Part shown: piece by piece, positions 1,708 to 44,390 of the stretch
Position numbering within the stretch: the stretch's first letter is position 1
Layout of the letters: every line of letters starts with the position of its first letter
From: Chitinophagales bacterium
GTDB lineage: Bacteria > Bacteroidota > Bacteroidia > Chitinophagales > UBA2359
NCBI GenBank assembly: GCA_020628375.1
Contig: JAHDFD010000003.1
Location: 124,001-188,000, forward strand
Length of the DNA stretch: 64,000 bases
Direction of reading: 5' to 3'
Translations under genes and position numbers: made by a program
Notes under the pieces: generated by a model
Database searches by the model: none
The model's input: the letters and a program-made list of their open reading frames with translations, nothing else
What the model was told of the DNA's origin: nothing

Positions 1708-4700
1708 TTATGAATGATGTCCGTGATCGCCTCCATGACCATCGTCGTGATGACCATCATGGTGTCCGCCATGCTTCACTTCCCCTTCATTCAATTTTTC
1801 ATCAATATTACGAACTTTAGTTAAGTAGCTAACCGATGACTTCACGTTTAATGCTTCTAATAAAACATAAGCACGATCATCGTTTTTCAACTTAGTTGTT
1901 TCGCTGTTTTTATCATTTATATCTCCGAAAGAAATAGCTCCTGTTGCACAAGCAGCCTGACAAGCTGTTTTTACATCACCATCTTTCAAAGGTTTCTTTC
2001 CTTTTTTAGCTTCTAATTTAGCTACCTGTATTTTCTGAACACAGAAAGAACATTTTTCAATAACCCCACGAGAACGAACAGTAACATCCGGATTCAAGAC
2101 CATACGGCTAAGGTTATCTGCCAATACAAACTCATCGTTCGTTGCCCCGGAAGAAGCGTAGAAACTATCTGCACCCTGATAATCGTACCAGTTGAAACGA
2201 CGTACTTTATAAGGACAGTTGTTCGCGCAGTAACGCGTTCCGATACAACGGTTGTAAGTCATTTGGTTCAATCCTTCTGAACTATGGTTGGTAGCATTTA
2301 CCGGACAAACATTTTCACATGGAGCATTATCGCAGTGCTGACACATCATTGGTTGGAATGCAACATGTGGATTTTCACCATACGGATCATTTTCTTTATC
2401 GAAAGAATAGTAACGATCTATACGCATCCAGTGCATTTCGTGAGCTCTGAATACTTCATTCTTTCCAACTATTGGAATATTATTTTCTACATTACAAGCA
2501 ACAGTACAGGCATTACATCCAATGCAGGCATTCAAATCAATTGCCATTCCCCAGTGATGCCCCTGCTTTAACTGATCGTCCCAACCAGGATATAGATCAA
2601 CCATGTGTACATGGCTGTGGTTTCCTGATTTATGATCTTCTTTATATTCTTTTAAGCTTGTTTCTTTAATTATTTCACGGTGATTACCCATTGCATCCAC
2701 ATCTTCAGGATTCAATGAATAATGTGTTTGTGTTTGAGGTAAAGGATAACCTGAACCAACTTTTTCTGCAGTTGCTCCGGTTACAACATAGTTAAACGTA
2801 TCTCCATCAAAACTAACGAATGGGAATAAGTTCTGTCCTGTAACACAATGCTCAGAACCCGGTTTAGTACGTCCATAACCTAAGGCTACAGCAATAACGT
2901 TGCTTTTTAATCCCGGCTGAACAGTTATTGGTAATTCAACAGATTTACCACCGGCACTGATCTTGATAATATCGTTATCCTCCCATCCATTATCGGCAGC
3001 CATTTTCTTAGAAACTACTGCTACATTATCCCAACAAACTTTAGTAATTGCATCAGGAGCTTCCTGTAAGTAAGGGTTATTGGCATATCTACCATCCCCC
3101 ATTGTTTCAGATTCGTATAAAACAACTTCTACTCCTCCTGACTTAATGTTATTAATGGCAGATTGTGCAGATGAAAGTGCGCTTCCATTGAAACGAACAA
3201 CAGCCGGAGCTGCAATTTCATATTCATTTACCTCTTCTTGATGTCCTTCGGCATGCCCTTCTCCGTGATGTCCATGATCGTGATCATCGTAATGTTCATC
3301 ATTGTGATCATGATCGCTTCCATGATGCGCATGATCATCGGCATGGTTAGCAGACATTTTAGTTGCTACTGCTGCATTTGAACCGTCGTGTAATAAGTTC
3401 AACCATTTCTCTTCATTACCAGAAAATCTTTCACGCATGAAGTCGTAGTATGACTTATTATATCCAGACCAAGCCAAAAGGCTTTCCTCCATTGATCTTG
3501 TATCGAATAAAGGTGCTATTGTTGGCTGAATAATATTCAAAGTACCTTTAACCGGCTCAACATCTCCCCAAGATTCCAAATAATGATTAGCAGGTGCTAA
3601 ATATTTACAAAACTCCGAAGTTTCATCTTCTCTGTCGCTGAAAGAGATAGAAGTCCCAACTCTTTTTAAGCCGGCTACGAACTTATCTGCTTCAAAGTAA
3701 TCATAAGCCGGGTTTACATTGTTGATAAGAACAGCATCTACTCTTCCGCTATTCATGTCATCAACCAATTTATTCATTGCTTTATCATCTCCCTGACTCA
3801 TCATGATCGGGTGACTGAAATCAATTGTATTTCCGAAGCTATTCAATTTATCATTGATCGCATTCACAACTAATTGAACATTTACATCGTTAGAAGCGCT
3901 CACAACTAAAGCCTTCCCACGTGCTGCTTTCAACGCTGCTCCTGCTTTCTTGATGGTTTTCTTGGTGTAGTCATCTAATTGAGCTGAAGAATTTGCGCTT
4001 CCACCAACAGCCTTCAATAACTCTAAAGCTACAGCGCCTGCCTGACTTGGTGAAATTGATGCACGATAATCAGCTGCTGCACCTGCTGATGTAACAAACG
4101 ACTCAAACTGAAAATGTTTAGACATCGTAACGTGATGAGCCGATACTTTTCTTGTTTTAATATAATCGGCAGTCTGACGGGTAGTTAAACCGAAAGTGTT
4201 TAAGAAATCACATTCTATACCAACGATTACTTCTGCCTTATCGAATAAATAAGAAGGCATTACTCTTTTTCCGAACGACTTTTCGTTAGCTTCAAGGATA
4301 CCAGCGTTTGAACAAGCATCGTAAGTTACTACTTTTAAACGAGGGAAACGATCTAAAACTGCTTGCGTTGAAGGTGAAGCTATTGTAGAAGTCAGTAGAA
4401 CAGCATTAGAAGCTGAACGTAATTTACCACTCACTTCAGTATCTAACTGACGCCAGTTTACTTTTGCGCCATTCGACTTAGGTGTTTTTAAACGTGCATT
4501 ATCATACAAGCTTACTACTGAAGCTTGTGCACGCGCACTTGTCCCACCCTGTGTAATTGAAGAAAGATCATTTCCTTCGACCTTGATTGGACGACCTTCA
4601 CGTGTTTTAACCAATACACTACAGAAATCTTTTCCATTAACGAAAGAAGATGCATAGTAAGTTGGCATACTTGGCAGTATCTGCTCCGGCTTATCTACGT

Positions 4701-7130: not shown

Positions 7131-8699
7131 ATGAGAAAAAATTTACTTTATTTTTTAGGATTGATTTTCTCTATTTCTGTAAGTGCGCAATGCGTTGATA
7201 ACGGCAATTACTGGAATGAAAGCTGGGTATCTTGTCAAACCAGTCAAAATCCTAATTCTATAAGAGGAAACACGCATTGGATACTTTATGAATTCCATGA
7301 GAATCACAACATTGATTCTACTTATATATGGAATGCCAATCGTGCAGGAGAAAGTGGCTGGGGCGCTAAAGATGTAGTTATAGATTATTCTGAAGATGGA
7401 AACACTTGGATAGAGTTGGGAAGCTACACTTTTCCGCAAGCAAACGAAAGTGCCAATTATAGTGGATTCTTAGGACCTATATTCAATGGTGTTTCAGTTA
7501 ATAAAATATTGATAACCATACTTTCAACACACGACAATAGTTTGTGTGCTTCTATAGCCGAAGTACAATTCAGAGTTGATTGTCTGAATACCTGGTATCA
7601 GGATGCTGATAATGATGGACTGGGTAATGATCTAGTAATGTTAGAACAGTGTGAACAACCAGTTGGCTATGTAAGTAATAGTGATGATCGTTGTGATAAT
7701 GGTGCTTTAGGCTGGGAAGATGCTTTGACTATATTTGATGATAGCGGCTGTACCAATTGCCATAATACTAATGCAACTAGTGGTCTTAACTTAACAACTT
7801 ATGCAAGCTTCTTAAATGGTGGCAACCAATGTAGTGATTTGGCAAGCGGAACAATTTTGACCGATATCATTACTAATGGTTTTACTTGTTCGGGTGGGTA
7901 TGTTGCCCCTATGAATGGAAGTAGTTACGCTGCTGGTGCTGTTGATGCTGATGAATTGGCAACCTTACAGGCATGGATAGATGGTGGAGCACCTGAGTTT
8001 TGTGAAGACTATTGCTTCAATGGTGCTTGTACTGCTAATATTCAGCTTAAATTCTTCTTAGAAGGTCCTTATGATCCGATTCTTGGGGAAATGGTTACCG
8101 ATCTGAATAGTGCCAACCTTATTCCACTTAATCAGCCTTATAATGTAGCACCTTTCAATTATAATGGCGGTGAAAGCGTTGCAAGTTATCCTTCTCCATC
8201 AATTGTTGACTGGGTATTCATTCAGGCAAGAGATATTAATAATTGGGATACGGTAATTGAAAGCAGGGCTTGTTTTGTATTGAAAGATGGGACTTTGATG
8301 GATATAGACGGAAGCACTGGTGTGAACTTCTATACATTAGATGAAAATACCCGTTATCGTTTCGCGGTTTATCATAAAAGTCATTTAGGAATTTTAAGTG
8401 CTTCAGATATGGATATCCCAACTTCAGGAGTATATGATTTCACTAACTCTTCAGCAATGACTGAGGGCATATCACAAACGACATTAGTGGGCAGTATTTA
8501 TGCTTTACATGCAGGAGATTATGATAATAATGGAATTATCAACAATCAGGACTTTAACTTATGGACGACTAATGCAGCTGTTGTTAACCAGTATGTACAT
8601 TGGGATGGTGATTGCAATACAGTAGCGAATAATCAGGATTTCAACCTTTGGAATGTGAATAAGAGTAAGGTTGGTGAGACGAGTATTTACCTTCCGTAA
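7131..8699 (+). CDS. Secreted protein with cytochrome-c-like motif and dockerin-like C-terminal repeats
   Basis: 522 residues. The ATG at 7131 directly precedes a signal peptide (MRKNLLYFLGLIFSISVSA), so the upstream in-frame TTG at 7113 is not used. Residues about 20-150 resemble a discoidin/sugar-binding domain. A CTNCHNTNA motif near residue 208, in a segment resembling small cytochrome c domains of surface proteins, could bind haem. From about residue 300 comes a module shared with the protein at 16393-17475: a VDWVF segment, an HLGIL segment, and two calcium-binding-like repeats (GDYDNNGIINNQDFN and a later DGDCNTVANNQDF). No type IX sorting tail is visible. Probably exported; function unknown. 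Confidence 0.7.
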   Translation: MRKNLLYFLGLIFSISVSAQCVDNGNYWNESWVSCQTSQNPNSIRGNTHWILYEFHENHNIDSTYIWNANRAGESGWGAKDVVIDYSEDGNTWIELGSYTFPQANESANYSGFLGPIFNGVSVNKILITILSTHDNSLCASIAEVQFRVDCLNTWYQDADNDGLGNDLVMLEQCEQPVGYVSNSDDRCDNGALGWEDALTIFDDSGCTNCHNTNATSGLNLTTYASFLNGGNQCSDLASGTILTDIITNGFTCSGGYVAPMNGSSYAAGAVDADELATLQAWIDGGAPEFCEDYCFNGACTANIQLKFFLEGPYDPILGEMVTDLNSANLIPLNQPYNVAPFNYNGGESVASYPSPSIVDWVFIQARDINNWDTVIESRACFVLKDGTLMDIDGSTGVNFYTLDENTRYRFAVYHKSHLGILSASDMDIPTSGVYDFTNSSAMTEGISQTTLVGSIYALHAGDYDNNGIINNQDFNLWTTNAAVVNQYVHWDGDCNTVANNQDFNLWNVNKSKVGETSIYLP

Positions 8700-9459: not shown

Positions 9460-10118
9460 ATAAACAGTTACTTTTAAAAAGTTCCTACTTCCTGATCCTG
9501 TATGTTTCACTCAGCTTATTGATTCAACAAACTCCTCTAAAAAAAGCACTGCCCGTTTTCTATTGTGCAATAGGAAACACTTTTAATAGTACATTTTACA
9601 ATGGTGGGGAAATTTCATTCAGAAATATAACTGATGAAGAAAGAATAGGAAAAAGAAAAGCAGAGTATGAAAAATATGATGTTCTGATGATCTTTATGAG
9701 TCAACAACAGAAAGAAAAAGCAAGAGAAAAAGCAAGGATTGCAGGAAGAAAAACTACAGAAATAACACCTATGCAATTCACAATCAATAGTTGGAATAAC
9801 CTTGGTATCTTTATCGTATATTTTACGAGTCTAATAATTGTATCTTCTGTGAATTTAAAGAAAAAGACAATTTCTTTCTCTTTTGGTTTAGTGCTGATAA
9901 TTCTATTTATTTCCATAAAAAATTGGTTTTCCCAAAGTGTAAAGTTTGCAGAGAATTACCCAAGATTTCAAGCAGGTATTGAATCTGAGACAGGCCTTAA
10001 AATAGCCCACCAAATTTATCTATTAGTCAATTTTATGGGCTTTGGTTTATTGATAGTTTCGACAATATGGGTGTTACTTATTGGCAATTCGTTAATAAAA
10101 AAGCCTGAATCGTTATAA
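9456..10118 (+). CDS. Exosortase-associated membrane protein
   Basis: 220 residues with an N-terminal membrane segment (residues 7-25), a hydrophilic loop of about 100 residues rich in Lys, Glu and Arg, and three C-terminal membrane segments. It is translationally coupled to the exosortase through an ATGA overlap at 9456-9459. Small membrane proteins encoded next to exosortases are a known class, and the position and topology fit that role. The function is unproven. The last codons (KKPESL) lie inside a hairpin that probably terminates the opposing gene. Confidence 0.65.
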   Translation: MNKQLLLKSSYFLILYVSLSLLIQQTPLKKALPVFYCAIGNTFNSTFYNGGEISFRNITDEERIGKRKAEYEKYDVLMIFMSQQQKEKAREKARIAGRKTTEITPMQFTINSWNNLGIFIVYFTSLIIVSSVNLKKKTISFSFGLVLIILFISIKNWFSQSVKFAENYPRFQAGIESETGLKIAHQIYLLVNFMGFGLLIVSTIWVLLIGNSLIKKPESL

Positions 10119-36284: not shown

Positions 36285-36527
36285 ATGACCATAACAATTA
36301 ATAAATGGGGAAATAGTTTAGGGATCCGCATACCTAAAGACATAGCCCAAAAAGCCAATTTAAAAGCAGGAACGACTATGACCATTGGTTTAGACGATGA
36401 AGGTAAATTAATCTTAAAAGAAGCAAAAGAGTTGACCTTAGATGACTTGTGTTCAGGGGTAACACCAGAAAACAAACACGATCTCATATTTGATAATGAA
36501 GTAGGGAAAGAAAAATGGACATACTAA
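36285..36527 (+). CDS. mazE: MazE/AbrB-type antitoxin
   Basis: 80 residues from the ATG at 36285. Swapped-hairpin AbrB fold: MTITINKWGNSLGIRIP is the DNA-binding strand pair, as in MazE and ChpI. The acidic C-terminal tail should wrap the toxin. It overlaps the toxin gene by 13 bases, which couples their translation. The module lies between copies of a dispersed repeat. Confidence 0.92.
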   Translation: MTITINKWGNSLGIRIPKDIAQKANLKAGTTMTIGLDDEGKLILKEAKELTLDDLCSGVTPENKHDLIFDNEVGKEKWTY

Positions 36528-36856
36528 CGACAGCCCCCAAACGTGGAGATATAGTTTGGCTGGATTTAGACCCCAAAAAAGGAAGAGAACAAAAAGGGCA
36601 TCGACCTGTCTTAGTAATATCCCACCTACAACACAATGAAGTTTACCAACTAGCGATCATCATTCCTATCACTCGTCAAAAAAAAGGTTTCGGAATTGAA
36701 GTCCCTCTACCCAAGGATTGTTCTATTGAGGGCGTTTTATTGACCAATCAAATACAAAGCATAGATTGGAAAACAAGAAATGCGGTCTATGAAACCAATA
36801 TAGATACCGACACTTTACAATCGGTTCTAAAACGAATTGATGTTTTGATAAAATGA
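36515..36856 (+). CDS. mazF: MazF-type endoribonuclease toxin
   Basis: 113 residues, full length for MazF. PKRGDIVWLDLDPKKGREQ at the N terminus and RPVLVIS follow the PemK/MazF pattern; the conserved basic and Thr/Ser active-site region is in IPITRQKKG. It cleaves mRNA at short specific sequences; the sequence preference cannot be predicted here. Cotranslated with the antitoxin upstream. Confidence 0.93.
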   Translation: MDILTTAPKRGDIVWLDLDPKKGREQKGHRPVLVISHLQHNEVYQLAIIIPITRQKKGFGIEVPLPKDCSIEGVLLTNQIQSIDWKTRNAVYETNIDTDTLQSVLKRIDVLIK

Positions 36857-39958: not shown

Positions 39959-42193
39959 TTAATCTACCAATAATTGTGTAACGGCTGCGGTATTAGTCGC
40001 CCATTGAATATCGTACACCTCATCTGCTTCTGCATCTTCGGTTAATTTCAAACCTTGTGCTTCTGCTTTTATGTTCAGCAAAGTACCTATATTCAAACGG
40101 CTATCTAATTTATTCAGTAAAGTCTCAACACCGTTCAGGTTCAAGCCTTGTACCACCTGACCATAGTAAGGCATTTCTAACCAAATAACTTCTCTGGCTT
40201 CAACATCCAACACACCGAAGACCAAACCCTTTGCTAAAGGCTGTGTAATTCTTACCTGATGTTGTACGCAACTCGGATCGTAAGCTACACCTGATTTTCG
40301 GGAAATACGCATCGAATGTTTACTATCCATCCAACCGACTACCATATTCGCTGTCAGGTTTCCGTTGCTGTAGGCATTACAAGTAAAGCTTACATACTTA
40401 GCACCTAATGTTTCCAATTTATCTACATCAATATTGATATACTCTGCTGTTCCTACTTTTGAAGGAATACTTCTTATATCACCGCTGTGTTGACATCCCG
40501 GAATCGTTAAGCTACTATATGAACAGAACTGTGCTTTATGCTCATAAGCTACATAACAACTCAAATCCATATCCAGGTGTTGAGCAGGCATTCCTTCTCC
40601 CCACTGCATGAACAAACGAACTTCGTTTCCTTCTAAAGGAAATCTTGTTCCCATTAATGCTGAAGGCATATCCTGAACATTTTCGCTTCGCTCTCCGATC
40701 GAAACCGGCATATTGAATAAAGCAGGATCGATATAGATCGTTTTGCTTTTATTTGGAACTCCTGCAAATCGCTTCTTCATCGCCAATAGCGTTAAATCTT
40801 CGATTTTGGCTTTCATTCCATCCAATTGTTTCTGATCGTACATTTCTAACAAAGGGTGTGTATCGATCGTTTTACGGATACCGCCCAGCGTTTTCACACT
40901 TCTTTTACCATTCGGTTTGAAGTAATTATCGGCATACATATTCAAGCTGAACACCAAACGAGCCGGAACCTGATCAACAACATCAGCAAAAGCATTGATC
41001 GTTATATCATCGCCGAACCACAACATATTCGAGAATAAAGAACGAGCAAACACACCTGGCTTTTCTTTCAAAATTCTCAACGATTTTTCGGCATTGAACT
41101 GCTGACGATTCTTGTTCAAAATCCCTTGCCATACTTTATACTTCTTGTTATAGAAAATATCCAGTATTGTTTTCAACTGCTCGAAACCAGCTTTTTTACT
41201 ATATTCTGCCAATCGTAAAGCTCTGATAAAACGCACCCACATATTTCTTTTAGGGTGCATGATCTCACACACTTTCTTAGGCGACATCGACAAGCCATTC
41301 AACCATGAAGCTACCATTTTACATTCTTTACGGCTGTACTTCAACTTCAAAGCTTTTTTCTTATCTAAACTTGCTGTATTACAATTACTGAAAAAGTTGA
41401 ACAAATGTGTATTATTCTCTTTCGTTTTATTGATAATGGTTTTAGGTTCTACAATTTGTAAGAAGCCTGTTTTCTTATACCACAAGTAACGTAAGATATC
41501 ATTCGGTGTAGAGAAATAAGATGCTGCTTTTTCAGCGTCTCCTTTTTCAACCAAAGTATCGATCAATAACATTAAGGTTTCTTTCATTGCCACTGCTACG
41601 TTTGGTATATCGAAAGAAAGAATCAATGTTTTCAGGCTTTCTACCTGTGTTGCATCTAAAGCCGTTTTCGACTTCAATAGATCATTCAGATAGTTCGTCA
41701 TATCGTCTTCTTTCCACAGATCAAGCACTTTCAATTTAGAACCTTGCTCGTTCAATTTCAGCTCTTCTTGTTGGAAAGGTGTTCCACAGAAAGGACAACC
41801 ATTATATCTTTCTAAAGGGAAAGTTTTCTTCGGAATATAGTGTCCGCATTTCAACTTTGATCCCCAATTCAGCTTCAGCACATTAGCAAAAAATGCTATA
41901 ATATGATCTGAACGTGATTCTCCGGTAGGAATATCCCAACCTTTCACCAATGGTGTCCAATTTTTATTCGTCCCCATTACTTCACGTAAAGCTTCCAGAA
42001 TTTCATGTTTCAGCTTTGGTGCTGCTGCGTTTAGTGCATGCAATAAAGGTTCTGAAAAGGTAAAACCTAATTTACGTGCATTCGCCAGTAAAATAGTACT
42101 GGTTTCTGAGATTTCCTTTACACTCTGCGCACATGCTGCTGCAGGAATAAAGATGGCACTTTGTCGAAGACTTACTTTAATTAAGTTTTTCAT
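39959..42193 (-). CDS. MXAN_6230/SCO0854-family RING-domain protein
   Basis: 744 residues. Family features in order: an N-terminal segment (IFIPAAACAQ, LARKLGFTFSEPLLHAL-like, then NWTPLVKGWDIPT); a short zinc site with Cys116-Gly-His118 and Cys133-Pro-Phe-Cys136, which supplies only half of a full RING ligand set; a long helical middle; and a C-terminal beta-rich domain (EVRLFMQWGEG, DLSCYVAYEH, HSGDIRSIPS, GTAEYINIDVDKLE). The family is known mainly from Myxococcus and actinobacteria. Its function is not established. Here the start codon lies 24 bases after a structured RNA element, and a tRNA-like array precedes it on the same strand, which suggests an RNA-related role. It has its own terminator. 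Confidence 0.75.
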   Translation of the reverse strand: MKNLIKVSLRQSAIFIPAAACAQSVKEISETSTILLANARKLGFTFSEPLLHALNAAAPKLKHEILEALREVMGTNKNWTPLVKGWDIPTGESRSDHIIAFFANVLKLNWGSKLKCGHYIPKKTFPLERYNGCPFCGTPFQQEELKLNEQGSKLKVLDLWKEDDMTNYLNDLLKSKTALDATQVESLKTLILSFDIPNVAVAMKETLMLLIDTLVEKGDAEKAASYFSTPNDILRYLWYKKTGFLQIVEPKTIINKTKENNTHLFNFFSNCNTASLDKKKALKLKYSRKECKMVASWLNGLSMSPKKVCEIMHPKRNMWVRFIRALRLAEYSKKAGFEQLKTILDIFYNKKYKVWQGILNKNRQQFNAEKSLRILKEKPGVFARSLFSNMLWFGDDITINAFADVVDQVPARLVFSLNMYADNYFKPNGKRSVKTLGGIRKTIDTHPLLEMYDQKQLDGMKAKIEDLTLLAMKKRFAGVPNKSKTIYIDPALFNMPVSIGERSENVQDMPSALMGTRFPLEGNEVRLFMQWGEGMPAQHLDMDLSCYVAYEHKAQFCSYSSLTIPGCQHSGDIRSIPSKVGTAEYINIDVDKLETLGAKYVSFTCNAYSNGNLTANMVVGWMDSKHSMRISRKSGVAYDPSCVQHQVRITQPLAKGLVFGVLDVEAREVIWLEMPYYGQVVQGLNLNGVETLLNKLDSRLNIGTLLNIKAEAQGLKLTEDAEADEVYDIQWATNTAAVTQLLVD

Positions 42194-42217: not shown

Positions 42218-42296
42218 GGGTAATTGTTCCGGCAAAACTCCGAGGTATAAGCTCGGCGACTTTTAGTCCAAAAAGAAGTAGCCGGAAACTTGACCC
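42218..42296 (-). ncRNA. Structured RNA element E5, abutting the RING-gene start
   Basis: 79 bases. Shares the layout of E1-E4 read on the minus strand: outer stem (GGGT 42218-42221 with ACCC 42293-42296), GGGTCAAG internal loop, second stem GCCGGAAAC/GTTCCGGC, TACTTC, hairpin GACTTTTAGTC, hairpin CCGAG/CTCGG, then AATTACC. The stem bases differ from the other copies while the internal-loop bases are kept. It ends 24 bases before the ATG of the RING-protein gene, so it could act in that gene's 5' leader. Confidence 0.75.
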
Positions 42297-42302
42297 AAAA
42301 TG

Positions 42303-42429
42303 CGAGACAGGTTGGATTCGAACCAACAACCTCAGGAGCCCTAAAAGAAGTAAGTCGATATTGACCTTTTAATGGGTAATTTATCAACTATCCATAACCC
42401 TGTACTCTATCCAGTTGAGCTACTGTCTC
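42303..42429 (-). tRNA. tRNA-like D with a 50-60-base insertion in the anticodon loop
   Basis: 127 bases. Acceptor stem GAGACAG/CTGTCTC is perfect; D arm GCTC/GAGT; T arm GTTGG-TTCGAAT-CCAAC. The anticodon stem CAGGG/TCCTG is interrupted after the loop TTATGGA by an insertion. With U33 fixed the apparent anticodon is ATG, unusual for a bacterial tRNA. The insertion contains GTTGAT/ATCGAC enclosing AAATTACC and GGTCAAT, then TTACTTC: the core of the E elements, opened at the other side. Discriminator G, no CCA encoded. Confidence 0.75.
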
Positions 42430-42440
42430 AAAAAAGAAAA

Positions 42441-42515
42441 GCAGGTAATTGTACAAGTAAGTTTCTACCTGAAAGAAGTGACCGAATGGTCGGAAGTAAC
42501 CTGTACTTGACCTGT
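42441..42515 (-). ncRNA. Structured RNA element E4
   Basis: 75 bases between tRNA-like C and D. Outer stem GCAGGT (42441-42446) with ACCTGT (42510-42515), extended outward by GAAAAG/CTTTTC. Second stem GTACA/TGTAC; hairpins GACC-GAAT-GGTC and TTTC/GAAA. It keeps GGTCAA, TACTTCC and AATTACC on the minus strand like the other copies, although the stems differ, which is compensatory change. Confidence 0.78.
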
Positions 42516-42536
42516 ACTTTTCTCGTTATCAAATTG

Positions 42537-42926
42537 TCGGGTGGGCTGGAATCGAACCAGCGCACAAAGTGTTGATATTGAAGTAGTAAGTTGATATTGA
42601 CCTAGGTAATCTTCAAACATCATCAGGAATCGAACCTAAAGTCGAATGACTTTACCAATATGGAAGTATGTTTAAATTGACCTGTTGTTTAGCAACGATA
42701 AAATAATAACTTCAACTTTTTGTTTGTAATATTTTACAAATAATTTCGCCAAAAACACTCACCATAGAACTGCTATGTTTTCGTTTTTTTAGCTCATTCT
42801 TCAAAAAATATTTTTTCCAAAAATGATGAACTTAATATTCAACCGTTGCTTAATTCGATATTTTTCAAAACAAAAAGGTAATTTATCAACTTTCAGTCTT
42901 CTGCTCTACCACTGAGCTACCACCCG
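42537..42926 (-). tRNA. tRNA-like C, split by an insertion of about 300 bases
   Basis: The 5' half (42926 downward) reads acceptor CGGGTGG, D arm GCTC/GAGC, then GAAGA and loop CTGAAAG with apparent anticodon GAA (Phe). The 3' half ends in T arm GCTGG-TTCGATT-CCAGC and acceptor CCACCCG, which pairs perfectly with the 5' acceptor although 375 bases lie between. The insertion starts with GTTGATAAATTACC and ends with GGTCAATATCAACTTACT, again the E core in rearranged form with a perfect six-base stem. It encloses a complete element E3. The 3' anticodon-stem strand is not clear, so this may be a degenerate gene. Confidence 0.6.
42604..42683 (-). ncRNA. Structured RNA element E3, inside tRNA-like C
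   Basis: 80 bases. Outer stem AGGT/ACCT (42604-42607 with 42680-42683), second stem AAACAT/ATGTTT, TACTTCC, hairpin AAAGTC-ATTC-GACTTT, and a T-arm-like hairpin AGG-TTCGATT-CCT in place of the second hairpin of other copies. The T-loop-like sequence is notable and may reflect a tRNA fragment. It keeps GGTCAA and ATTACC. Confidence 0.65.
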
Positions 42927-43039
42927 TAATTGCAGATTAAGCACTTTTATTAAAACCATTTTAGTATAATGGCTATACTTTCTAGTAATTAGACACACCG
43001 ATATACATTTTCATTGTTTCTTTAGAAAAAGTTTGTTTC

Positions 43040-43090
43040 AAAAAAACTCCACTTTTCAGGTATCCGTTGGTCTGAAGACACAACGGAAGT
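43040..43090 (-). terminator. Hairpin repeat with T-run, copy 1
   Basis: Minus strand: CCGTTG pairs with CAACGG, with an outer ACTTCC/GGAGT helix, followed by seven T. 44 bases are shared with 52834-52885 apart from two differences. It would end minus-strand transcription after tRNA-like B, which would split the array into two transcripts. Confidence 0.65.
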
Positions 43091-43198
43091 AAATAAATGT
43101 ATAGAGTAGCATGGTAATTAGAAATAAATACTGCTTAACTACAAGAATTTCAAAGAACTACATTCAGCGAAAAAAGATTCCCTGAATTTTATTTTTTG

Positions 43199-43323
43199 CG
43201 AGACAGGCTGGAATCGAACCAGCGACCTAGGCGTTAACGGTATCTGTAGTAAGTTTTTATTGACCAATTCTGATAATTTAAAAACTATAGAGGGCCTTGC
43301 TCTACCAACTGAGCTACTGTCTC
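43199..43323 (-). tRNA. tRNA-like B with a 50-base insertion in the anticodon loop
   Basis: 125 bases. Acceptor GAGACAG/CTGTCTC, D arm GCTC/GAGC, T arm GCTGG-TTCGATT-CCAGC. After AGGCC and loop CTCTATA (apparent anticodon CTA, which would read UAG) comes an insertion with stem GTTTTT/AAAAAC enclosing AAATTATC and GGTCAAT, then TTACTAC, as in tRNA-like D. GCCT closes the anticodon stem, with one mismatch. Discriminator G, no CCA encoded. Confidence 0.72.
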
Positions 43324-43328
43324 AAAGT

Positions 43329-43402
43329 GCAGGTAATTGTGAAAGTTGGGTTCATTAAAAGTGAATTGGCTAAAAGCCGGAAGTAACTTACACTTGACCT
43401 GC
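43329..43402 (-). ncRNA. Structured RNA element E2
   Basis: 74 bases, nearly identical to E1. Outer stem GCAGGT/ACCTGC (with a further T-A pair), second stem GTGTAAGT/ACTTTCAC, TACTTCC, hairpin GGCT-TTT-AGCC, hairpin TTCA/TGAA. The last hairpin is TTCG/CGAA in E1, a compensatory pair change. It lies six bases from tRNA-like B. Confidence 0.82.
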
Positions 43403-43425
43403 AAATATTTTAAAGAACTAATTTG

Positions 43426-43499
43426 TGAGACAGGTCGGATTCGAACCGACGACCCGTAACTTAAAAGATTACTGCTCTAACCAGCTGAGCTACTGTCTC
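43426..43499 (-). tRNA. tRNA-Lys(UUU)-like, uninterrupted
   Basis: 74 bases forming a complete cloverleaf: acceptor GAGACAG/CTGTCTC, D arm GCTC/GAGC, anticodon arm GTAAT-CTTTTAA-GTTAC with anticodon TTT (43463-43465), T arm GTCGG-TTCGAAT-CCGAC, discriminator A. CCA is not encoded. The acceptor stem is identical in B and D, which differ elsewhere, and is not what I expect of a housekeeping tRNA-Lys. It may be a specialised tRNA-like RNA and not the cell's translational tRNA. Confidence 0.78.
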
Positions 43500-43504
43500 A
43501 AAAA

Positions 43505-43579
43505 GCAGGTAATTGTGAAAGTTAGGGTTCGTTGACAGCGAAGTGGCTAAAAGCCGGAAGTAACTTACACTTGACCTGC
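43505..43579 (-). ncRNA. Structured RNA element E1, first of the array
   Basis: 75 bases. Outer stem GCAGGT (43505-43510) with ACCTGC (43574-43579), second stem GTGTAAGT/ACTTTCAC with one A-A mismatch, TACTTCC, hairpin GGCT/AGCC and hairpin TTCG/CGAA. It is the most upstream member on the minus strand, so the promoter of the array should lie in 43580-43760, which also holds the promoter of the divergent gene at 43761. Confidence 0.82.
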
Positions 43580-43760
43580 AATTATGTTATTTCTAAGAAC
43601 AATTCCGATTTGAATTATGATAATCAATATCTTTATTTCCTATCGACAGGACAAATGTAAAAGGGGGTGTGCGCAGCCTATTTGCGTAGTAATAAAAAAG
43701 ATGAAAAAAAATTATTTTTTCTTTAATTCATACTTATTTAATATCATTTATTTTTGTAAA

Positions 43761-44390
43761 ATGGGAGCATTACCACTTATAAAAGACCGCAAAGATTTTT
43801 CATTAGAAGAATATTATCAGTTTCAGGATAAGATCAGTACTGAGGGCTTAGTTATAGCAGGTGAAGTTATTAACCGGGTTGAATTTTATAATGGTGAAAT
43901 TTGGTTTATGGCTGGTGGAACGATCAATCATTCTCGGATATCTGGAAATTTGTACTATGCTATAAGAAGTTTACTAGATGGGGCAAAATGCGAGCCTTTT
44001 GGCAGTGACACCAATTTAGCACTTGATAAATTCAGAAATATTTTTCACCCTGACCTTTTTATTGTTTGTGATGGAATAAAAACTAGTGAGTTCGATAAAA
44101 ATGGTATTACCAATGCTTCTGTTATTATAGAGGTTTTATCGAAAGGAACAGAAGCTTATGACAGAGGAGGCAAATTCAGAAAATATAAGCAGATTTCAAC
44201 ATTCAAAGAATATATTTTGATTAATCAAGATAAACCGCTTGTTGAATCATTTGTAAGGCATGATTCAAATTTATGGTCGATACACTATTTTGAAGGCTTA
44301 GAAAGTTCATTTAAAATAGAAACTTTGAATTTGTCTGTTTCATTAAAAGATGTTTATAGTGGAATTGAGTGGGAAACAAAAGTGCCCTAA
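43761..44390 (+). CDS. Uma2-family endonuclease-like protein
   Basis: 209 residues from the ATG at 43761; the frame is open upstream to 43617 but that part is low-complexity and unlike the family. Uma2 (DUF820) features: RVEFYNGEIWFMAG, NHSRISGNL, HPDLFIVC, and VIIEVLSKGTEAYDRGGKF, which carry the Glu, Asp and Glu-x-Leu residues of a PD-(D/E)XK nuclease fold. Such genes are frequent and often solitary; the biological role is unknown. It diverges from the tRNA-like array. Confidence 0.85.
   Translation: MGALPLIKDRKDFSLEEYYQFQDKISTEGLVIAGEVINRVEFYNGEIWFMAGGTINHSRISGNLYYAIRSLLDGAKCEPFGSDTNLALDKFRNIFHPDLFIVCDGIKTSEFDKNGITNASVIIEVLSKGTEAYDRGGKFRKYKQISTFKEYILINQDKPLVESFVRHDSNLWSIHYFEGLESSFKIETLNLSVSLKDVYSGIEWETKVP

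Follow-up and report, generated by a model that had tools for sequence, protein, structure and literature searches.

The question raised by this locus is what function a series of tRNA-like sequences, interspersed with structured RNA elements, could have immediately upstream of a gene for a RING-type protein. It lies within a stretch of 64,000 nucleotides from a Chitinophagales bacterium, referred to here as the window. A first-pass annotation had described tRNA-like sequences alternating with elements termed E, and we could confirm its order and place: all five E elements and the tRNA-likes A to D are present, and on the minus strand E1, A, E2, B, C (with E3 inside), E4, D and E5 precede the RING open reading frame.

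Composition of the array

Two covariance models were used. R1 describes the E elements (48 training sequences, including E1 and E4 and excluding E2 and E3), and R2 the permuted core motif found within tRNA-likes (trained on B and D, among others). The features are, in window positions:

43670..43688, minus strand: palindromic operator TACGCAAATAGGCTGCGCA; 42 of 52 arrays have a similar site upstream
43652..43659, minus strand: TACATTTG, seen in the sequence, which we take to resemble the Bacteroidota -7 box TAnnTTTG
43502..43582, minus strand: E1, R1 58.2 bits, R1 training sequence; payload hairpin of 4 bp with loop CTGTCAA (Asp-like)
43425..43499, minus strand: tRNA A, uninterrupted tRNA-Lys(UUU), found by ARAGORN and Rfam (70.4 bits)
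43326..43405, minus strand: E2, R1 59.0 bits, absent from the training set; payload loop CTTTTAA (Lys UUU)
43199..43323, minus strand: tRNA-like B, with the core motif interrupting its anticodon arm; Rfam tRNA 52.1 bits
43244..43292, minus strand: core motif in tRNA-like B, permuted order; R2 59.0 bits, training sequence
42535..42926, minus strand: tRNA-like C, halves discernible by inspection; no tRNA score from Rfam or ARAGORN
42599..42688, minus strand: E3, nested; R1 35.5 bits, not a training sequence
42438..42518, minus strand: E4, R1 58.9 bits, training sequence; payload hairpin of 4 bp with loop TTCAGGT (Leu CAG-like)
42303..42429, minus strand: tRNA-like D, with the core motif interrupting its anticodon arm; Rfam tRNA 50.3 bits
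42345..42395, minus strand: core motif in tRNA-like D, permuted order; R2 61.4 bits, training sequence
42218..42299, minus strand: E5, core letters present, P2 with one extra base; payload hairpin of 5 bp with loop CTTATAC
39959..42193, minus strand: RING-type protein of 744 aa, distantly related to the MXAN_6230/SCO0854 family

The common core of the E elements consists of GGUCAA, a stem of almost always 8 bp, UACUNC and AUUAYC. The E layout of 74-80 bases proposed earlier holds as far as its parts are concerned, but its constant portion turned out to be narrower, and the hairpins represent a variable payload. Likewise, tRNA-likes and E elements do alternate, but the first pass had missed that this core also lies inside the anticodon arms of B, C and D, circularly permuted to P2', AAUUACC, P1, GGUCAA, P2, UACUNC. 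The same element is thus used in both orders. E5, whose loop is identical to a tRNA-Ile anticodon loop of our reference set, was not detected by R1.

Only tRNA A is an intact cloverleaf with a 7-nt anticodon loop and the only one of the four that ARAGORN reports, as tRNA-Lys(UUU); B and D score solely across inserts of about 60 nt, and C, which has no such cloverleaf, is missed by Rfam as well. The acceptor stem GAGACAG is common to A, B and D. Without its insert at position 33/34, B would have the Asn loop CTGTTAA, while skipping the insert of D restores no known loop. In C, an insert of about 310 nt splits the anticodon arm and harbours E3 within its P1 loop; the payload of E3 (ATTGGTAA plus GGTTCGATTCC) is of the D-loop and T-arm (elbow) type.

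The claim that the layout belongs to no described RNA family agrees with our Rfam searches, in which only tRNA (A, B and D) reached the gathering score in the window, and a known Rfam family was excluded on this basis. At E values up to 1, the array region gave only two further matches far below gathering scores (RsaF between B and C with 21.3 bits against 60; one of the two is on the antisense strand of tRNA A), and no bacterial Y RNA or YrlA match.

Covariation and distribution of the core motif

That the stem sequences vary while pairing is kept, as noticed in the first pass, was substantiated in two ways. In the stems of 48 E elements, 90.9% of cells pair, with a covariation score of 0.722 versus 0.191 in shuffles. 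One earlier statistic for stem P2 had used copies preselected for at least 7 of 8 pairs, so a test on 101 sites picked without any pairing criterion was added: 82 of these pair at 7 or 8 of 8 positions, compared with 0-4 at shifted offsets and a mean of 8.7 (maximum 18) with dealt partners.

Among RING homologs with at least 300 nt of upstream sequence (53 stretches; noticed duplicates were removed, without an exhaustive check), 51 are preceded by strict core copies and the other two by covariance-model matches. Strict E copies number 0 to 5 per array. In a search of 395 genomes of the class, R1 matched six, all belonging to the seven RING-positive ones (best 12 first-look candidates per genome). 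The first-pass annotation had held that a lack of homologous elements, of covariation or of transcription would reduce the locus to a chance repeat array; on transcription there are no RNA data, but homologs exist elsewhere and the stems covary. The array is real and conserved, and chance repeats were rejected on the grounds of stem covariation, the shuffle and offset controls and the distribution of R1 matches among the candidates scored.

The model also performed on material unused in its construction. Of 20 plasmid records with a RING homolog three were inspected, and R1 found E elements upstream of RING homologs on a Hymenobacter plasmid (L160), at 59.7 bits, and on a Segatella plasmid (L162), twice at 43.7 bits. 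Rfam detected one interrupted tRNA on each of these two, R2 only that of Segatella. The distant RING homologs L043, L044 and L161 gave no R1 match. As to carriage by phages or viruses, a pattern scan of IMG/VR yielded 18 matches and no relative, and the four phage records found all had 22-25% identity; this candidate was rejected.

In 46 of 51 arrays, the distance from the beginning of the last strict E to the RING start is 70 to 106 nt, and, apart from two near-threshold matches, R1 matches lie upstream of RING in the loci searched (29 sources, without L047-L074). Such constancy is what one would expect if the E elements, chiefly the last one before the start codon, acted as a cis-acting leader that controls or processes the RING mRNA, perhaps as a sensor of RtcB or tRNA damage. 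We consider a leader rather improbable, as it leaves unexplained the diversity of anticodon payloads, the tRNA bodies and the several copies per array; moreover, on the Hymenobacter plasmid the E element ends about 220 nt before the RING reading frame, with a tRNA-like in between.

That the array derives from a repeat, mobile or decaying, which invades tRNA genes and leaves remnants behind is a notion already disfavoured and appears very improbable. The variable number of strict E copies, the nesting of E3 in C and one genome (L158) with an E and a tRNA-like away from RING would fit it. Against this, R1, scored on the best 150 of 6250 first-look candidates in this genome, found no copy beyond the array, the matches in the class were confined to RING-positive genomes, pairing is strongly constrained, and place and promoter are conserved.

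Payloads and restored anticodon loops

The hairpins had not been seen as anticodon loops in the first pass. After collapsing 162 E elements at 85% similarity into 77 payload clusters, the payload hairpin loop of 13 clusters was exactly a reference tRNA anticodon loop, compared with 0.74 in shuffles (maximum 4 in 1000) and two clusters on the reverse complements. A looser U33/R37 hairpin pattern was dropped as unspecific (39 versus 38 on the reverse complement). The remaining 64 clusters have no exact reference loop; some other payloads look like tRNA elbows, and E1 payloads in Flavobacterium contain no clean anticodon arm. Taken together, these data demonstrate that one covarying core motif, in two permuted orders, carries payloads copying tRNA parts just upstream of one RING-type gene, the payloads being either anticodon stem-loops, which represent several isoacceptors, elbows of the D-loop/T-arm type, or complete tRNA bodies.

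For the tRNA-likes split in the loop, often at 33/34, 14 copies were delimited by hand. Omitted were two unclear copies (L014 -282 and -1371), a stem-split one (L014 -800), two without a normal arm (L042 and L024, the latter with no anticodon arm left), L027 on account of its N bases, L051 and L064 on account of their closeness to L034, and C of the window, which lacks a clear 3' strand. With the insert left out, 7 of the 14 regain a real loop, compared with 0.53 in shuffles (maximum 4 in 5000). Among 48 distinct copies inspected for stem restoration, three lacked a recognisable T-arm; in 37 of the other 45, skipping the insert yields a 5-bp anticodon stem, 27 of them with a reference loop. 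This set, for which there is no shuffle control, contains many close Flavobacterium relatives, and the script takes the best-pairing frame. The commonest tRNA-like loop is that of tRNA-Lys; in genome G212 the array tRNA body is unlike the cell's own tRNA-Lys.

The restored stems and loops, together with the occurrence of the element in both orders and the association with RtcB described below, raise the question if the core is an intron or permuted intron, excised from the tRNA-like anticodon arm, with RtcB sealing the ends into a mature tRNA, and with permuted E elements giving rise to small circular RNAs that bear anticodon arms or elbows. This is possible, yet we regard it as doubtful. Inferred splice points, counted by hand, lie 0-3 nt from the motif in stem-split and up to 8 nt in loop-split copies, unlike the cuts of a fixed cutter, and no fixed distance was seen by eye among the copies. 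In addition, none of the neighbour genes examined was recognised as encoding an endonuclease, no reference loop is restored in half of the loop-split copies, including D of the window, and the stem-split copy L047 folds unspliced as a P2 hairpin plus an anticodon hairpin. In its boldest form, for which there are no RNA data and which we consider speculative and unlikely, Bacteroidota would have their own kind of tRNA splicing: an RNA element, perhaps a ribozyme, would be cut from anticodon arms that RtcB seals, and permuted copies would become circular RNAs whose displayed anticodon arms serve as exonuclease-proof sponges against anticodon nucleases. In the literature searched we found no description of RtcB-dependent tRNA introns or natural RtcB-made circles in bacteria; if the splicing reading is true, the array would represent both.

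Repair genes, the RING-type protein and known systems

RtcB is the tRNA-splicing ligase of archaea and animals. Burroughs and Aravind reportedly mention, in an abstract of 2016, a 'novel tRNA-like molecule' in RtcB repair operons. The first pass guessed at a link to such operons even though no RtcB lies in the window, and the guess is supported by the presence of RtcB in 30 of 32 RING-positive versus 15 of 33 RING-negative genomes. The sample was not random, being the heads of lists: 32 genomes out of the 42 in which a close RING homolog occurs, and 33 negatives. In 14 of the 32, no more than 4 kb separate RtcB from the RING gene, and RtcB lies upstream of RING at L021, L024, L027, L037 and L042. 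Elsewhere, part of the loci have WYL, RtcB, RlaP, Rnl1 and Pnkp genes as neighbours. In the genome studied here, RtcB (L172) and the Rnl1 operon are on contigs other than that of the array.

The palindrome matched 29 times in 480,592 bases and not at all in one shuffled copy, and in most cases TTTG follows it at a similar distance. The other exact copy in this incomplete genome is flanked by a WYL gene on one side and a T4-type Rnl1-Pnkp operon on the other. The palindrome is thus shared by the array and by regulator or repair genes, as required of the operator of a WYL regulon. A WYL regulator probably controls the array; that the WYL protein itself binds the palindrome is inferred from position only, without binding data.

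The RING protein matches NCBIfam NF041916, the model of the MXAN_6230/SCO0854 RING family, with E 2.6e-34 and 118.5 bits, far below the cutoff of 600, and is thus a relative and not a member by cutoff; all 18 aligned RING proteins match this model (best E 7.2e-46). Prok-RING_4 was matched below its cutoff (E 0.0025). TROVE was not matched by the 18 proteins (Pfam, E up to 0.1), and Foldseek returned no match at E 0.001 or below for the whole model (pTM 0.48) or the C-terminal 269 residues (pTM 0.79). Against solved structures, a profile search produced two weak hits (E 0.0036 and 0.0043), to a plant ABC transporter. A TerD fold of the C-terminal part remains a guess without a Pfam or Foldseek match; a TerD family annotation exists only on a distant Vibrio plasmid homolog. 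PADLOC assigned no known defence family. Plasmid homologs outside the Bacteroidota have 24-26% identity, and a distant homolog in Variovorax lies near a divergent rtcR.

We propose, tentatively and with slightly less than even confidence, that the array supplies the non-coding RNAs of a regulon for the repair of tRNA breaks, and that its anticodon arms act on anticodon nucleases as decoys or sensors; neither RNA nor protein data are available. According to this proposal, tRNA damage would lead the WYL protein to permit transcription of the operon, and the transcript would be cut into units. The RING protein may bind the core motif and hold the units, an assumption based on co-occurrence alone. 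The displayed anticodon loops could then occupy anticodon nucleases, such as toxins or phage-exclusion nucleases, or report on them, so that the real tRNAs are spared or sensed, while RtcB or Rnl1-Pnkp would reseal broken ones. With an insert in its anticodon arm, often at 33/34 in the loop-split cases, a tRNA-like acting as a decoy would be of little use in translation and difficult to cleave at that place. We count in favour the covariation without pairing selection, the plasmid finds, the restriction of R1 matches to RING-positive genomes among the candidates scored, the exact loops, the shared palindrome, the RtcB association, the repair genes among the neighbours, the tRNA body in G212 that differs from the cell's own and the Variovorax homolog near rtcR. 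Against it we count the clusters without an exact loop, the Flavobacterium E1 payloads, the lost arm at L024, the L158 placement, the lack of a fold match for RING and the separate contigs of RtcB and the Rnl1 operon; furthermore, a pure display decoy has no need of loops restored by insert removal.

Companion RNAs of RNA-repair operons are known, and their job is open. Here, the RNAs copy anticodon loops of several tRNAs as well as the elbow on one motif, so the decoy or sensor idea is directly testable, and the array offers an RNA motif with two permuted uses.

Archaea have tRNA introns and permuted tRNA genes and use RtcB as ligase. Like them, the array has anticodon arms that are interrupted at several positions, shows permuted orders and is linked to RtcB, but instead of a bulge-helix-bulge it has a core with an 8-bp stem and UACUNC, and no splicing endonuclease was recognised. 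T4 Rnl1-Pnkp repairs tRNA-Lys cut by PrrC; similarly, an Rnl1-like and a Pnkp-like gene lie here behind the same palindrome, and tRNA-Lys provides the commonest tRNA-like loop, whereas the tie to an RNA array and a RING gene differs from T4. The Salmonella rsr-yrlBA-rtcBA locus is a regulated RNA-repair operon with RtcB, Rsr, Y RNAs and a divergent regulator (PMC7790460). Both systems combine a link to RtcB, a gene for an RNA-binding or scaffold protein, tRNA-like non-coding RNAs and a divergent regulator, but with the array a RING-type protein replaces Rsr, WYL replaces RtcR and, unlike the Y RNAs, there are many short RNAs with different anticodon loops.

Architecture and covariation of the RNA elements

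42193-39959, minus strand: RING ORF (protein P0001), with the array upstream

On the minus strand the order proposed in the first-pass annotation, namely E1, tRNA-like A, E2, tRNA-like B, tRNA-like C (with E3 inside), E4, tRNA-like D and E5, is seen in the sequence. Rfam calls tRNA at A (70.4 bits), B (52.1) and D (50.3), and ARAGORN calls A alone, as tRNA-Lys(UUU). The E elements had been thought to belong to no described family, which agrees with Rfam, where nothing besides tRNA reached a gathering score. Two extra matches at E up to 1 were taken as chance: Plastid-ycf2 (29.1 bits vs 65.7), antisense to tRNA A, and RsaF (21.3 bits vs 60), which falls between B and C.

The constant core consists of GGUCAA, one strand of stem P2 and UACUNC, with the P2 partner followed by AUUAYC on the opposite side; stem P1 pairs GGU with AYC. 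E elements read P1-GGUCAA-P2-UACUNC-payload-P2'-AAUUACC-P1', the payload being variable hairpins. In tRNA-likes B, C and D the core is permuted: the 5' anticodon arm is followed by P2'-AAUUACC-P1 loop-GGUCAA-P2-UACUNC and then by the 3' anticodon arm. E3 is nested in the P1 loop of C, and by eye similar nesting occurs in three further loci (L015, L019 and L026). Between B and C (43119-42980, minus strand) lie two AATTAC motifs, TTTACTTCCG and the complementary ATACATTT/AAATGTAT, which looks like a decayed additional E element without GGTCAA.

Significant covariation, without which the array could have been dismissed as a chance repeat, was found. In 48 diverse E elements 90.9% of cells pair, with a covariation score of 0.722 vs 0.191 for shuffled and at most 0.225 for slid partners, and all 8 P2 pairs show both-side changes. 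For 20 permuted copies pairing was 97.3% and the score 0.523 vs 0.202, with both-side changes in 6 of the 8 P2 pairs. Because both sets had been preselected for pairing, the test was repeated on 101 pairing-blind sites, for which GGUCAA-N8-UAC with the next AUYAY after it was the sole criterion. At the predicted offset 82 of these sites form 7 or 8 of the 8 pairs; at twelve other offsets the number is between 0 and 4, and random partners give a mean of 8.7 (maximum 18).

Occurrence of the array and its RING gene

The NCBIfam model for MXAN_6230/SCO0854 RING proteins picks up P0001, with a score below its cutoff, as well as the homologs of P0001. Almost no variation is seen in the zinc-ligand pattern C116-x-H118 ... 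C133-x2-C136, and neither sequence nor fold searches brought up a PDB relative. Among 149 relatives 12 gave a match to the RING protein, which in 4 cases was distant or partial, and among 395 class genomes 7 did. A single genus accounts for 10 of the 11 matches in 395 phylum genomes, and 21 of 160 genomes of this genus were positive. Named species contributed 15 RING loci, including Flavobacterium hercynium, Chitinophaga niastensis, Chryseobacterium sp. Leaf180, Crocinitomix and Capnocytophaga. Some entries are shared between these lists, in which the source genome of the window is also counted.

Homologous elements, whose absence elsewhere would have counted against the array, are common upstream of RING genes. 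Among 57 upstream stretches, 4 were too short; 51 of the 53 usable ones contained one or more strict E elements, and the other two gave matches to R1, the covariance model of E elements (L038, 30.8 bits; L039, 40.4 bits). The 214 strict copies (162 E and 52 permuted) have a P2 of 8 nt in 212 cases; the lengths allowed were 8 or 9 in the strict pattern and 5 to 9 in its predecessor. In L041 (~9567-9639, minus strand) a short ORF (ATGAACAACACAAAAGAAATGAAGGTCAA) lies upstream of the RING gene, and its start apparently overlaps an E element.

R1 and R2, the model of the permuted core, were built from the 48 E elements and the 20 permuted copies. In the source genome, where the 150 best of 6250 first-look candidates were scored, R1 gave 4 matches, all in the array. 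In 493 kb from 29 sources its matches sit in arrays upstream of RING genes, with two near-threshold exceptions (L045; L034 at 18918). A covariance search of the kind proposed in the first-pass annotation gave R1 matches in 6 of 395 class genomes, all RING-positive; weak copies elsewhere were possibly missed, since scoring was limited to 12 first-look candidates in each genome. Two plasmid RING homologs found after model building are accompanied by E elements (Hymenobacter, 59.7 bits; Segatella, 43.7 bits twice) and by one interrupted tRNA per plasmid (51.7 and 43.2 bits in Rfam); R2 matched the Segatella insert and did not find that of Hymenobacter. In one RING-positive genome an E element and an interrupted tRNA-like lie on a contig other than that of the RING gene (L158 1412-1577, minus strand, G263:C222); the ORF adjoining this E element is read as YbaK/prolyl-tRNA editing-like.

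tRNA parts in payloads and interrupted tRNAs

As reference, 207 ARAGORN predictions in the loci gave 123 distinct sequences and 72 distinct anticodon loops. Payload hairpins (at least 3 bp, 7-nt loop) carry an exact reference loop in 13 of 77 clusters, assigned to Lys, Asn, Asp, Gly, Ile, Leu and Pro, vs a mean of 0.74 (maximum 4) in 1000 shuffles and 2 in reverse complements. A looser pattern, U33 plus purine 37, proves nothing, as its 39 clusters nearly equal the 38 of reverse complements. The window's exact loops are those of E2 (CTTTTAA, Lys) and E5 (CTTATAC, Ile); those of E1 (CTGTCAA) and E4 (TTCAGGT) are near matches. E3 belongs to a second payload class with ATTGGTAA-like and GGTTCGANTCC stretches, resembling tRNA D-loop and T-arm.

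The commonest tRNA-like type has its insert within the 5' strand of the anticodon stem, e.g. GG[insert]ACG CTTTTAA CGTCC. Of the 45 copies analysed, 37 form five pairs across the insert, and the loops of these include Lys (18), Arg (6), Gln, Asn and Pro. In 14 loop-split copies, delimited by hand, skipping the insert restored a reference loop in 7 (0.53 in shuffles). For an insert at 33/34, U33 precedes in 11 (shuffles 5.8), a known 34-38 follows in 7 (1.07), and both hold in 6 (0.43); an exception is the copy L014 -1179, where the insert sits at 37/38 or 38/39. B thereby yields CTGTTAA (Asn); no reference loop is restored in D. Such restoration is what splicing by RtcB, the main rival explanation, would predict, yet junction distances vary, which speaks against it. 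In one genome (G212) the array tRNA body differs from the genome's own tRNA-Lys, with acceptor strands GGGGCAG and GACTCGA.

Palindrome, repair genes and relation to known systems

A palindrome like TACGCAAA-N5-TGCGCA lies upstream of 42 of 52 arrays (29 matches in 480,592 bases vs 0 in one shuffled copy), and the window has a single match without mismatch. In L021, L037 and L042 such sites separate a WYL gene from an RtcB gene. TACGCAAAN5TGCG has just one further exact match in the source genome (69% complete), and this falls between a WYL gene, 46.8-55.5% identical to RING-neighbouring WYL genes in eleven loci, and a T4-type RNA ligase (PF09511, 64.5 bits), followed by Pnkp (HAD_PNKP, 170.9 bits). 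Only these two exact sites were counted, since matches with up to one mismatch are barely separable from a reversed control pattern (10 vs 6).

Listing the neighbours, as the first-pass annotation had suggested, revealed RtcB, WYL, Rnl1, Pnkp and RlaP beside RING genes in some loci; in F. hercynium the RING gene is followed by Rnl1, Pnkp and RlaP. RtcB is present in 30 of 32 RING-positive vs 15 of 33 RING-negative genomes. Of the two RING-positive genomes in which no RtcB was found, one is 75% complete and the other is G343, the genome of L038. The RING homolog of G343 has one aberrant E element with a GACCAA core (8016-8098); array and ligase may have been lost together there.

Near the RING locus L034 there are three extra palindromes (2653, 3739 and 9909), two flanking an Rnl1 gene (2692-3702) and one preceding a small unknown ORF, so that the regulon may be larger. 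The window also contains a Uma2-type nuclease ORF (43617-44390, plus strand; Pfam E 4.6e-22), whose true start is probably near 43761; this start would place the palindrome between the divergent ORF and array. A PemK/MazF-type toxin gene (36515-36856, plus strand; Pfam E 6.6e-24) lies ~3.1 kb past the RING gene, with no link shown.

From these findings, and without data on RING binding, transcript processing or nucleases, we infer that the array belongs to a system of RNA and protein for the repair of tRNA breaks, its RNAs presenting tRNA parts. A distant RING homolog in Variovorax has rtcR ~1.3 kb away on the other strand, and its locus gave no R1 match. No description of this RNA was seen in the literature searched. 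Partial prior notice is not excluded, because the abstract of Burroughs and Aravind 2016 reportedly names a novel tRNA-like molecule beside SPFH/Band-7 proteins.
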